This document shows, one piece after another, positions 485-38,680 of a stretch of DNA of 43,841 nucleotides. Each line of letters opens with the position of its first letter. The first letter of the stretch is position 1. Below the pieces are notes generated by a model that worked only from the letters and a program-made list of their open reading frames with translations, made no database searches and was not told where the DNA came from. The position numbers and the translations under genes were made by a program. The stretch lies in NCBI GenBank assembly GCA_017453485.1, contig JAFTEW010000045.1, positions 1 to 43,841 on the forward strand, in the 5' to 3' direction. The stretch is from Alphaproteobacteria bacterium (GTDB taxonomy: Bacteria; Pseudomonadota; Alphaproteobacteria; CAAHEQ01; UBA3637).

Positions 485-1087
485 ATGGCGATTGATGCTT
501 ATATGTGGCAAACGGACGCGGATATGGCGCGGGATAATGCCACGGAAAAACATTATCAGTTTTTTTCTGACGGGATGCCGGTCGGACGAGCGGCCACTCG
601 GGTTTTGCGTCATGCCTTTGCTTTCCGGGAGCAACAGCAATTTTTTCCGGCTTCCTGGTTTCAGGGAAATGCAGGCGTCATCGGCGGTTATTATTCTGTC
701 GCCAGGTTGAAGCCGATATTGAACATTACGTGTTATAATTTTAAAAATTATCGTGGCGTAGGCTATGGTCGAGCCGGGTTGCAAAAACTGTATTTACTAT
801 CCCGCCGCTTGGGATGTGATGGGCGAATAGTCTTGACGGCCACAAATAACGCCGGCGGCTTTTATGAACATTGCGGTTTTCAAGGTCTAAAAGCCGGAAA
901 TGACGGAGAAAAGTATTTTGATCCCCAATGTCAAACGCTGAAAAAACTGTTTCAAAGAAATCATATCCGAAATTTTACAATACAGGAAATTCCATCGGCT
1001 GATCAAATACGGAAGGTCCCTCTCTCTGATAAGACAGGTATTTACGCTCGATTACAAAAGGTTATAGCCTGTATGGAAAGAATTTAA
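485..1087 (+). CDS. GNAT-like acetyltransferase domain protein
   Basis: The protein has 200 residues from the ATG at 485. The central part, NYRGVGYGRAGLQKLYLLSRR followed by a NNAGGFYEHCGF segment, resembles acetyl-CoA-binding motif A and the following strand-helix of GNAT N-acetyltransferases. This is a family-level assignment only; the substrate is unknown. The frame can be extended upstream to a TTG at 380, but that would place a clean promoter (449-477) inside the gene and add a low-complexity start, so the ATG is preferred. There is no Shine-Dalgarno sequence. The gene stands alone between a divergent membrane-protein gene and tRNA-Ser. Confidence 0.6.
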   Translation: MAIDAYMWQTDADMARDNATEKHYQFFSDGMPVGRAATRVLRHAFAFREQQQFFPASWFQGNAGVIGGYYSVARLKPILNITCYNFKNYRGVGYGRAGLQKLYLLSRRLGCDGRIVLTATNNAGGFYEHCGFQGLKAGNDGEKYFDPQCQTLKKLFQRNHIRNFTIQEIPSADQIRKVPLSDKTGIYARLQKVIACMERI

Positions 1088-1202
1088 TTATCCCAAACAA
1101 CAATCATTTAATCTGACGAGTACTGCCGCGCTTTGTGAACGAACCCCATATCCGGTTTTCTCCGCCATTAATCATATAAAATCTATGCTCATGCAACTAT
1201 TT

Positions 1203-1293
1203 TGGCGGGAAGATGGGGATTCGAACCCCAGATAGAGACAAGCCCTATAACAGATTTCGAGTCTGCCGCATTCGACCACTCTGCCATCTTCCC
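1203..1293 (-). tRNA. tRNA-Ser (anticodon CGA)
   Basis: This is a class II tRNA with a long variable arm, 91 nt including an encoded CCA (1203-1205). The acceptor strands GGGAAGA and TCTTCCC pair perfectly. The anticodon loop CTCGAAA gives anticodon CGA, reading UCG codons. The T arm contains GGTTCGAATCC. The first 36 nt are duplicated upstream (see 1404-1447), so the gene sits about 200 nt behind its only clear promoter (1494-1522). Confidence 0.95.
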
Positions 1294-1301
1294 TATTTAC
1301 T
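1258..1301. repeat. 44-bp direct repeat, copy 1 (inside tRNA-Ser)
   Basis: This 44-bp sequence is identical to 1404-1447. It holds nucleotides 1-36 of tRNA-Ser plus 8 nt of its 5' flank. Confidence 0.95.
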
Positions 1302-1403
1302 CTCAATCTGTTATAACGGTCTGCTGACGCATCCCTGACAGATATTGTCCGCTTCGCGCTGTTAAAGGTCGCGCTCCGCGTTCTCTCACCTTCGGTTCGG
1401 TAG
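1302..1403. other. GC-rich spacer between the two tRNA-Ser repeat copies
   Basis: This 102-nt segment is richer in G and C than its surroundings and has no credible ORF. It contains GCTGACGC; its complement GCGTCAGC also occurs in the GC-rich segment beside tRNA-Gln, at 38590-38597, near the second tRNA fragment. It is probably an inserted unit that duplicated part of the tRNA gene. Confidence 0.5.
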
Positions 1404-1447
1404 CGAGTCTGCCGCATTCGACCACTCTGCCATCTTCCCTATTTACT
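1404..1447. repeat. 44-bp direct repeat, copy 2 (tRNA-Ser 5'-half pseudo-copy)
   Basis: This is an exact copy of 1258-1301. On the minus strand it gives an unaccompanied tRNA-Ser 5' half (D arm and half of the anticodon arm) located between the promoter and the intact tRNA gene. It cannot form a full tRNA. Confidence 0.95.
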
Positions 1448-1493
1448 GTCCTGCCATTCCAACCTGCTAATGCTTTCCTGACAGTTCACCCCT

Positions 1494-1522
1494 TCTATAT
1501 CCTATTTTTCAAAAAAATGCAA
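1494..1522 (-). promoter_or_regulatory. Promoter for tRNA-Ser transcript
   Basis: TTGCAT (1522-1517) and TATAGA (1499-1494) are separated by 17 nt. Transcription from here would cross the 5'-half copy and the spacer before reaching the intact tRNA-Ser. Confidence 0.55.
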
Positions 1523-1593: not shown

Positions 1594-3660
1594 ATGAGAT
1601 TTAGAGACGTTGTATATTATTCTAGAAGATATAAAAATTGGTTGATAATGCTGTTTATTTTCAGCATATCCTTCTTTTTATCCGAATATTTAGTCTATCA
1701 GTGGACGGACTGGTCTTTACAAATGTCCAGCACGGATCAAATCTTTACGTCGGTTTTGTATGATTCGGTTATCCAGGCTTTGCTGCTGTATATCAGTATT
1801 GTTATTTCCTCTCTGTTTTTTATTGTTTTATTCAAAATTTTCGGATTTTTCAAAAGACGGGAAATCGAAATCTTATTAGAACAAACAACTAAGGAACTAC
1901 GGCACGAAAATCGGGAACTGTATCATAAACTCTCATCCTATTATTCCATTATGAATCAAGCTCCGGCCGGCATTTTTGTGACCCGAAACAATCGCATTCA
2001 ATTGTGCAATAAAGCCATGAGTCCTTTTTGGTCAGAAAAACCGACAGACGCCCTGGGGAAAAACGTTTTTTCACTTTTTGCCAAACCGGTAGAAATTGAA
2101 AAAATTTTTGATAAGTGCCTGGCCATGTTGGATAAAAAATCAAGTTGGTCAGTTCAAACACAAATTACTCGCCGGGACGGGGAGAAAATGCTTTATCAGG
2201 TATCCGCATTTCCGATGGATAAAAATAATATTAAACAAGGTGTTATTTGGCTTTTTCAGGATTTTTCCGCCGAAGCCTGGAACATAGAACTGGAAAAGTA
2301 TTATCAAACCGTTTTTCGGGCTTTAACCTTACTTCATAATTTCAGTGATAATGATAACGAATATGATTTATTGAAACAAATACTGAATGAAATTATCGGT
2401 ATATATGGTTTAAAAACAGCGTTCTTTTTAACTTATCACGATCGGCATTTAAAGGTAAACTTTATCGTTGGTGACGATCAAGATTTCCCGGATATCAAGC
2501 GAGATATTGATTTAGATGATAAAAAACTCCAAAACATCGCCGTTGTTCAGGCCTTTATGACACAACGCGCCATCGGTTTCAGCGATATTCGTAATATCTC
2601 CTACTATAAAGAATCATTCCGCCGTCGTAATAAGAAAACAGTTCTTTCCACCTATGCTTTCCCGATTATTATTGAAGGGAAAGTTGAAGGAATTATCAGT
2701 CTATACGGACATAAAGTTGGCTTTTTCTCGGACAGTTTAATTTTCCGCCTGCATCAGTTGTTATCCGAAATTTCGGAAAATATCGGGCTTATTCGGTTGC
2801 GGCGACGGTCGCAATTAGCGATTCATCAATATGAAGAACGGTTGCGTTTGCAAATTCACCAATTGGAAGAAAATAGACAAACCATGCAAGAGCAGGCAAT
2901 CATTTTGAAAGAAGCCCGAGAAACGGCCGAAAACGACAATAAAGCCAAATCTGATTTTATTGCAAATATGAGCCACGAATTGCGCACGCCACTTAATGCC
3001 ATTTTGGGATTTTCCGAAGCGATGGTCAGTGAAACTTTCGGTCCATTGCCTCCCCAATATCGGGAATATGTTCAATATGTTTATTCCAGTGGCCGTTATC
3101 TTTTATCCTTAATCAATGATATCTTGGATTTATCCGGTTTGGAAGGAAACCATGTCAAATTAAAGGATGCCGATATTGAGTTAATACCCTTTGTTAACAC
3201 AATTTTAGAAGTCGTCAAGCACTATCCCGGCGGTATGAAGCGAAATATGACATATCATATTAAACCGAAAAATATCGGCATCCGATTGGACGAACGCTCT
3301 TTAAAACAAATCTTTTTGAATGTCTTATCAAATGCTATTAAATTTACGGATGATGGTGGAAAAATTGATATTGATATCCGCCTGACCCGGCAAAAAGAAC
3401 TGCAAATGACTATCAGCGATAACGGCATCGGTATTCCGAAAGATAAAATCGGTTTATTGTTTCAACCGTTCAGTCAAGTTGAAAATGTTATGACCCGCAA
3501 ACACAAGGGAACAGGATTAGGATTGGTTCTGGTTAAACGTTTAACGGAATTACAGCAAGGAACCATTCGAATGGAAAGTGAAGAAGAAAAAGGAACAAAA
3601 ATTATTATCACTTTCCCGGCAGAACGTGTCATAACCATTAAACAGGAGGCAAAATCATGA
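1594..3660 (+). CDS. Membrane sensor histidine kinase with PAS and GAF-like domains
   Basis: The protein has 688 residues. Two membrane segments (about 15-36 and 58-84) are followed by a linker helix, a PAS domain (about 113-228), a GAF-like domain (about 240-400), a coiled coil (405-450), a HisKA domain with the phospho-acceptor His461 in SHELRTPLNAILGFSE, and an ATPase domain with N box (N576/N580), DNGIGIP (609-615) and GTGLGL (639-644). No receiver domain or response-regulator gene is adjacent, so its partner must lie elsewhere. An AAAGGATG ribosome site precedes the ATG. The stop overlaps the ATG of a periplasmic binding-protein gene, suggesting a shared sensing task. The ligand is unknown. 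Confidence 0.92.
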   Translation: MRFRDVVYYSRRYKNWLIMLFIFSISFFLSEYLVYQWTDWSLQMSSTDQIFTSVLYDSVIQALLLYISIVISSLFFIVLFKIFGFFKRREIEILLEQTTKELRHENRELYHKLSSYYSIMNQAPAGIFVTRNNRIQLCNKAMSPFWSEKPTDALGKNVFSLFAKPVEIEKIFDKCLAMLDKKSSWSVQTQITRRDGEKMLYQVSAFPMDKNNIKQGVIWLFQDFSAEAWNIELEKYYQTVFRALTLLHNFSDNDNEYDLLKQILNEIIGIYGLKTAFFLTYHDRHLKVNFIVGDDQDFPDIKRDIDLDDKKLQNIAVVQAFMTQRAIGFSDIRNISYYKESFRRRNKKTVLSTYAFPIIIEGKVEGIISLYGHKVGFFSDSLIFRLHQLLSEISENIGLIRLRRRSQLAIHQYEERLRLQIHQLEENRQTMQEQAIILKEARETAENDNKAKSDFIANMSHELRTPLNAILGFSEAMVSETFGPLPPQYREYVQYVYSSGRYLLSLINDILDLSGLEGNHVKLKDADIELIPFVNTILEVVKHYPGGMKRNMTYHIKPKNIGIRLDERSLKQIFLNVLSNAIKFTDDGGKIDIDIRLTRQKELQMTISDNGIGIPKDKIGLLFQPFSQVENVMTRKHKGTGLGLVLVKRLTELQQGTIRMESEEEKGTKIIITFPAERVITIKQEAKS

Positions 3661-38367: not shown

Positions 38368-38442
38368 TGGGGTGTCGCCAAGTGGTAAGGCAACGGTTTT
38401 TGATACCGTCATTCGTTGGTTCGAATCCAGCCACCCCAACCA
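38368..38442 (+). tRNA. tRNA-Gln (anticodon TTG)
   Basis: This tRNA is 75 nt with encoded CCA. Acceptor TGGGGTG pairs with CACCCCA. The anticodon stem ACGGT/ACCGT holds loop TTTTGAT, giving anticodon TTG (Gln). The T arm contains GGTTCGAATCC. Its last 15 nt recur at 38608-38622. Confidence 0.96.
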
Positions 38443-38444: not shown

Positions 38445-38448
38445 AAAA

Positions 38449-38474
38449 ATCCCCCGTTTATCGGGGGTATTTTT
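38449..38474 (+). terminator. Terminator after tRNA-Gln
   Basis: CCCCCG (38451-38456) and CGGGGG (38462-38467) pair around TTTAT and are followed by a T-rich run. Confidence 0.8.
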
Positions 38475-38607
38475 ATTGATTGAGATGGTTAGGTGGACTG
38501 AGCAATGTTCGGCGAACGAGGACGCAGGGTGTCCGAGCGAGAGACGCCCCATTGGGGCGGTCGCAAGCGTTAGCGCGCGATGAAATGTGCGTCAGCCATT
38601 TCACAAT
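38475..38607. other. GC-rich, hairpin-rich segment between tRNA-Gln end copies
   Basis: There is no credible ORF. It contains CGCCCC-ATT-GGGGCG (about 38544-38558) and GAAATG...CATTTC hairpins and runs such as GGCGAACGAGGACGC. Composition differs from the AT-rich flanks. It resembles the GC-rich spacer beside tRNA-Ser in style and shares GCGTCAGC (38590-38597). Confidence 0.45.
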
Positions 38608-38624
38608 CAGCCACCCCAACCAAG
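38608..38624. repeat. 17-bp direct repeat, copy 2 (detached tRNA-Gln 3' end)
   Basis: This is an exact copy of 38428-38444, 180 nt downstream and followed by its own terminator. Confidence 0.9.
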
Positions 38625-38630
38625 TCAGAT

Positions 38631-38655
38631 AAGTCGCTAGAAATAGCGACTTTTT
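38631..38655 (+). terminator. Terminator after the detached tRNA-Gln end
   Basis: AAGTCGCTA (38631-38639), a GAAA tetraloop and TAGCGACTT (38644-38652) are followed by T residues. The sequence GCGACTTTTTCTTTT after it also follows tRNA-Lys. Confidence 0.9.
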
Positions 38656-38680
38656 CTTTTAATTACATACGCTTACAAAA

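Follow-up and report, generated by a model that had tools for sequence, protein, structure and literature searches.

tRNA-linked repeats (TLRs) have been known in Escherichia coli since 1978. They number 22 copies at ten loci, and the last 18–19 bp of a TLR are identical to the tRNA or rRNA upstream of it (PMC8144298). Their function was not known before a 2021 study of three copies; three E. coli TLRs, RrA, RrB and RrF, bind Hfq and CsrA, and CsrA binding is predicted for only three of the 22 (PMC8144298). For RtT, a tandem GA motif has been reported (PMC7657543). In the tyrT/tyrV locus of E. coli K-12, every repeat is built from GGGGAAGGATGAGAAGCTTCGACC, AAGGTTCG, a core and AATCCTTCCCCCACCACCA, an arrangement that we refer to below as the 3'-type layout, and the Rfam RtT model scores 133–138 bits on these repeats. 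The 5S-linked rrB repeat of rrnB likewise contains a split 5S 3' end, as far as can be read by eye.

The locus described here lies in a 43,841-nt stretch of alphaproteobacterial DNA, the whole of which is called the window, and carries a partial tRNA copy of the opposite polarity. The half of tRNA-Ser(CGA) that is duplicated there belongs to a conserved repeat, rich in hairpins, of which further copies occur at serine tRNA genes across a family of gut bacteria. We refer to this repeat as the 5' type.

The tRNA-Ser(CGA) locus and the 5'-type unit

The original prediction had described a duplication of the 5' half of tRNA-Ser(CGA) and a GC-rich spacer of 102 nt between the copy and the intact gene, and both were confirmed (Table 1). 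The direct repeat 1258–1304/1404–1450 comprises 47 nt with 98% identity (one mismatch), of which 44 nt are exact; these correspond to nt 1–36 of the tRNA plus AGTAAATA and occupy 1404–1447 in the copy. The spacer, 1302–1403, has a G+C content above that of its AT-rich flanks. The copy had further been placed between the gene and its only clear promoter. Our analysis agrees, in that the sole plausible promoter is the TTGCAT-N17-TATAGA motif upstream of the copy. This motif falls below the rule of a strict promoter scan, which reported zero promoters between the copy and tRNA-Ser(CGA). All four genomes of the genus (the window species and three sisters) have a TTGC(A/T)T...TAT block in this position, ahead of the first copy.

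Table 1. Features of the tRNA-Ser(CGA) and tRNA-Gln(TTG) loci in the window
Feature	Position	Strand	Remarks
Intact tRNA-Ser(CGA)	1203..1293	(-)	ARAGORN; Rfam RF00005, 58.8 bits
5'-half copy, tRNA nt 1–36	1404..1439	(-)	Ends between anticodon bases 2 and 3
8 nt, AGTAAATA	1440..1447	(-)	Same 8 nt directly upstream of the intact gene, 1294–1301
GC-rich hairpin core, following nt 36 of the copied half	1344..1403	(-)	
3' anticodon strand copy (ATCTGT), variable hairpin HP3 and inverted anticodon arm (TTATAACAGATTGAGAG)	1300..1343	(-)	
Promoter-like TTGCAT-N17-TATAGA, upstream of the copy	1493..1522	(-)	By reading the sequence
tRNA-Gln(TTG), host of a 3'-type element	38368..38442	(+)	
Terminator-like hairpin between tRNA-Gln and the 3'-type element	38445..38477	(+)	By reading the sequence
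3'-type element of tRNA-Gln	38487..38622	(+)	R2, 45.1 bits (in training set)
Inverted T-arm of the tRNA-Gln element	38487–38503	(+)	
Direct T-arm 5' strand, to TTCG, of the tRNA-Gln element	38506–38511	(+)	Core follows
Copy of the tRNA-Gln 3' end	38605–38622	(+)	CAGCCACCCCAACCAAG
Second terminator-like hairpin, after the 3'-end copy	38631..38656	(+)	By reading the sequence

When every tRNA of the window genome was scored against every tRNA flank, an upstream 5'-half copy was found only at Ser(CGA) and Ser(UGA), with scores of 36 and 33.5. The 99th percentile of the other tRNA/flank pairs is 10, so that for a score of 36 chance is excluded. R1, a covariance model made from 17 5'-type elements, matches the window element at 1300–1413 with 70.2 bits, this element being part of its training set. 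A dispersed repeat was considered and rejected: the spacer has no second occurrence in its own genome, and beyond chance-looking matches the core pattern occurs there at the Ser(UGA) locus alone. An Rfam search of the spacer returned no family at gathering score; relaxed matches were overlaps with tRNAs or weak RtT matches on the 3'-type elements described below.

Read in the sense of the tRNA, a 5'-type unit consists of nt 1–36, a hairpin core of about 30–60 nt (often GAACGA-hairpin-GGAC), a copy of the 3' anticodon-stem strand (AAATCTGTT), a variable hairpin and an inverted anticodon arm (AACAGATTGAGAG, extending to TCTGTCG in some species), followed by a short linker and the intact tRNA. 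The structured spacer measures 80–110 nt and recurs in many genera. The spacer is itself the conserved object, composed of a hairpin core and an inverted anticodon arm, which the earlier reading had missed. The HP3 helix is made up of both arm copies together with the variable hairpin; 85.5% of its cells are paired, compared with 32–46% in slid controls (17 elements). Double changes were found in five of five inner HP3 pairs across the same elements, and the covariation is significant. Where the anticodon stem of the host tRNA differs, the arms of the element match it: they read AAATCAGA in L072 and AAATCATG in L096–L098, as in the respective host, and those of the Ser(UGA) elements follow their host with AAAACCG. 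Beyond these tRNA-derived arms the sequence is highly variable. At three loci (L041, L043 and L047), the D-arm sequence is missing from some 5'-half copies, which have gained GATAA(G); this motif is able to pair with (C)TTATC, the sequence with which the core begins, and possibly reflects a template-switch change.

Distribution and age of the 5' type

A 5'-type element is present upstream of tRNA-Ser(CGA) or tRNA-Ser(UGA) in 21 of 43 family genomes (R1, E ≤ 0.001), which are mostly drafts in many contigs and for which the E-values of both covariance models used here, R1 and R2, are rough. Units are often arranged in tandem, commonly two to three and at most three. Two further Ser(UGA) elements score more weakly, one of them in a genome outside the 21. 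R1 matches that score below about 23 bits and do not lie at tRNA-Ser look chance-like and fall in open reading frames. A DNA search with tRNA-Ser(CGA) and its 8 upstream nucleotides as query yielded second partial matches in 12 of the 43 genomes. In all 15 of these the copy ends at query position 44, equivalent to tRNA nt 36, so that the break falls behind the second anticodon base (NG^A, where the caret marks the breakpoint); this constant end point had also escaped the earlier reading.

The sensor-kinase-like gene at 1594–3660 adjoins the locus in species of six genera, and the locus is therefore ancestral. Two syntenic pairs differ in the presence of the element, and between L051 and L054 the insertion amounts to exactly nt 1–36 plus 77 nt. 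This syntenic empty site bears out the proposal that an insertion bearing the 5' half has separated the gene from its promoter. The comparison with sister genomes that had been suggested revealed the same arrangement in other species and genera; as these are independent assemblies, a misassembly, the concern raised alongside, is very unlikely. The assumption of a recent event, on the other hand, does not hold. Since the structure is common to several genera with conserved gene order, the exact identity of the copies in the window genome probably results from homogenisation of tandem repeats and not from recency. In all, the earlier interpretation of the locus is partly supported.

Outside the family, one more case was found among 385 genomes of the class. 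In this genome (G207), tRNA-Ser(CGA) carries three tandem 5'-half units (L123) with the same breakpoint and an unrelated core; 5'-half units are absent from G080, the one family relative of G207 examined. A scan of genome contigs gave one clear relative, from sheep rumen (L121). A viral origin was rejected, as viral contigs contained no match to the core and none of 15 loop-split pattern matches in that search was associated with tRNA-Ser.

3'-type elements and the relation to tRNA-linked repeats

The duplicated 3' end of tRNA-Gln, also noted in the original prediction, proved genuine, whereas no copy was found for tRNA-Lys, for which the same had been claimed. What had escaped notice is that, in its layout, the tRNA-Gln case is a mirror-image form of the same design. 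In such 3'-type elements the tRNA is followed by a terminator, an inverted T-arm, a small hairpin, the T-arm 5' strand up to TTCG, a GC-rich core and the sequence from AATC to the tRNA 3' end, so that the T-arm is split in its loop at TTCG^AATC. A second terminator often lies behind the element, and several tRNAs of G010 (L158–L187) have duplicated terminators.

The flanks of all or most tRNAs were surveyed in two genomes. In the window genome (37 tRNA flanks), 3'-end copies lie downstream of Arg(CCG), Gln, Ser(GGA) and Leu(CAA), and a degraded one is found at one tRNA-Met. In G010, 14 of 30 tRNAs score above the 99th percentile, compared with 0.3 expected, and more are recognisable by eye; about half of the tRNA genes in this genome (L158–L187) carry a 3'-type element on their own T-arm. 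The copy starts exactly at A58 in 12 of 17 elements, and in 9 of 17 the T-stem that precedes the core agrees better with the element's own tRNA than with any other (Fisher p = 8e-6). For the inverted T-arm, an ungapped test over all elements was not significant (p = 0.06), and the arm is clear by eye in several.

Covariance models connect the 3' type with the E. coli repeats. R2, built from 13 alphaproteobacterial 3'-type elements and no E. coli sequence, finds elements outside its training set at Lys (L159), Ser(UGA) (L035) and Pro (L178) and recovers four of four E. coli tyrT (RtT) repeats with E-values of 1.1e-5 to 6e-3 in 106 kb; the 5S-linked rrB repeat of rrnB was not found with it. In the reverse direction, the RtT model (RF00391) gives 24.8–27.6 bits on 3'-type elements, below its gathering score of 45. 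The 5' type is set apart in these searches: RtT has no match on 5'-type elements, R2 has no significant match on the 5'-type element, and R1 has none on 3'-type loci or on E. coli tyrT.

The definition of a TLR covers the 3'-type elements. The tRNA-Gln element ends in the 3' copy by which TLRs are defined, whereas the unit at 1302–1447 contains a 5' half and lies upstream. TLRs form one to five tandem units in tRNA operons, which agrees with the single unit here and the up to three in relatives. A feature taken from tyrT, namely an inverted arm together with a direct arm whose loop is interrupted by a hairpin core, is shared throughout, in tyrT order in the 3' type and in mirror order in the 5' type. 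Like the E. coli repeats of tyrT/tyrV (RtT, RF00391, rttR), the 5' type is adjacent to a tRNA, contains a partial tRNA copy with a fixed loop breakpoint at G^A, places inverted and direct arms around a GC-rich hairpin core, forms tandem units and has a G-A-rich hairpin motif; the CGAG-hairpin-CGAG cores found here also permit a tandem GA motif, by eye. Unlike the E. coli TLRs, which lie downstream of the tRNA and copy its last 18–19 bp, the 5' type lies upstream within the predicted transcription unit and copies nt 1–36, with its breakpoint in the anticodon loop of tRNA-Ser(NGA). The 3'-type elements mirror the 5' type in layout and resemble it in the kind of core; they differ in using the T-loop, in usually lying past the terminator and in copying nt 58–76.

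Because it copies the 5' half, lies upstream and is not linked by R1 to 3'-type loci or tyrT, the 5' type is classed here as a mirror-type variant of the same logic and not as a TLR, and earlier descriptions of it may exist beyond the open-access literature. Given the lack of R1 matches to 3'-type or E. coli repeats, it is the layout and the G-A-rich hairpin motif, seen by eye, that link the two types. We infer as their common rule that the core is placed in a tRNA loop at a G^A step (TTCG^AATC, or NG^A in serine anticodons); such a rule would explain why the 5' type occurs only at Ser(CGA) and Ser(UGA). More tentatively, and with rather more doubt than confidence on our part, the 5' type, the 3' type and the E. 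coli TLRs could represent one Proteobacteria-wide class of elements. Members of this class would install themselves at the fixed G^A step of a tRNA hairpin loop, either TTCG^AATC in any tRNA or NG^A in a tRNA-Ser anticodon, and would flank a hairpin core with direct and inverted copies of the host arm, by a mechanism new to description.

With TLR anatomy present in Alphaproteobacteria, at about half of the tRNAs in one genome, and with a fixed breakpoint and a mirror-type 5' form, what had been a curiosity of enterobacteria becomes a subject for comparison, in which gain, loss and copy number of elements can be traced across species. The loop-split rule provides a search pattern. It also follows as a warning that tRNA-half reads in such genomes may derive from repeat units and not from mature tRNA.

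Several further structures were seen beside tRNA genes. Just downstream of tRNA-Ser(CGA), 1067..1173 (-) may be a decayed 3'-type element, with GGGGTTCG followed by a GC-rich stretch (R2 14 bits, E 0.18; weak). Two copies of a palindrome-like stretch, GTTCGAATGTCC...ACGAACTTTT, lie downstream of tRNA-Pro(GGG) in L028 (about 1578–2400), both of them behind a similar terminator-like hairpin. A palindrome like that of L028 also lies downstream of tRNA-Leu(CAA), and GTTCGAATGTC is found near tRNA-Lys at about 43312 in the window.

Origin of the repeat and alternative explanations

On balance, we favour the view that 1300–1447 is one unit of a tRNA-Ser-anchored non-coding repeat that is ancient and tolerated, has been expanded and lost by recombination, and is probably not a dedicated regulator. 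The unit would have originated in an event that copied one tRNA arm, in direct and inverted form, around a hairpin core that sits at the G^A step of the loop. Units could then be multiplied, homogenised or cleanly deleted when the repeated tRNA halves undergo homologous recombination, which explains the tandem arrays, the identity within a genome and the patchy presence. The intact tRNA would remain functional. As the unit forms part of the leader, it should be transcribed, and an RNase P cut at the true 5' end of the tRNA should free it as a structured RNA.

That released RNA, a 5' half with a hairpin leader, might act in trans as a small regulatory RNA by analogy with RrA, RrB and RrF, an alternative that we regard as rather unlikely. 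The element always lies in what should be the transcribed leader, its structure is conserved with covariation, and the binding of Hfq and CsrA by E. coli TLRs sets a precedent (PMC8144298). However, about half of the family genomes lack the element with no trace left, the sequence outside the tRNA-derived arms varies strongly, and 3'-type elements mostly lie behind a terminator; even the precedent is narrow, given the prediction of CsrA binding for only three of 22 E. coli TLRs (PMC8144298). The covariation in HP3 would also fit a selected RNA function, or a template-switch correction of DNA palindromes.

The leader could instead act in cis, with the 5' copy and inverted arm pairing with the intact tRNA so that the precursor is misfolded until processed. 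For the window genome and the sister genome G001, folding leader and tRNA together is predicted to gain 16–18 kcal/mol over folding them separately, with the inverted arm paired to the anticodon arm. In about half of 20 folded loci, however, the predicted gain is about 3 kcal/mol or less, and most of these have few or no leader–tRNA pairs. Precursor misfolding is therefore not conserved in these models, conserved control of tRNA folding is unlikely, and the cis-acting leader as a whole appears improbable.

tRNA-targeting integrases leave a duplicate part of the tRNA, with the gene restored, at a symmetric arm. The direct repeat pair at tRNA-Ser(CGA) fits such a trace, and the locus could be the scar of an integrative element that has lost its cargo, with the att site of a tyrosine recombinase located in the anticodon arm. 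We consider this highly improbable. Neither an integrase gene nor cargo was found at the locus, where the two copies are only 102 nt apart, and a structured spacer of 80–110 nt that recurs across many genera does not resemble random remnants; tandem units and a core within the loop of the copy also argue against a scar. That the insertion or duplication arose recently and by chance in this genome alone, as the identity over 44 nt might suggest, is refuted by relatives in other species and genera with the same structure, breakpoint and synteny, and we give this reading practically no credence.

Other known systems resemble the repeat in single features. Group I introns of tRNA anticodon loops share the insertion point; the insert of the 5' type is far too small in comparison, and its functional tRNA is the uninterrupted copy. 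No Rfam group I or group II family matched, and the copy lacks a 3' half. Similar to REP/BIME repeats with their RAYT (Y1) transposases, the elements found here are small, GC-rich, hairpin-forming, non-coding and patchy. They differ in being tied to tRNA loops and tRNA-specific sequence, and G010, the genome richest in 3'-type elements among those surveyed, lacks the Y1 transposase (PF01797); no recombinase was identified. Y1 transposase scores above cut-off in five of 43 genomes. G007, an assembly of many contigs, is unlike its relatives in having 28 matches to Y1 (IS200-like) transposase, many of them broken.
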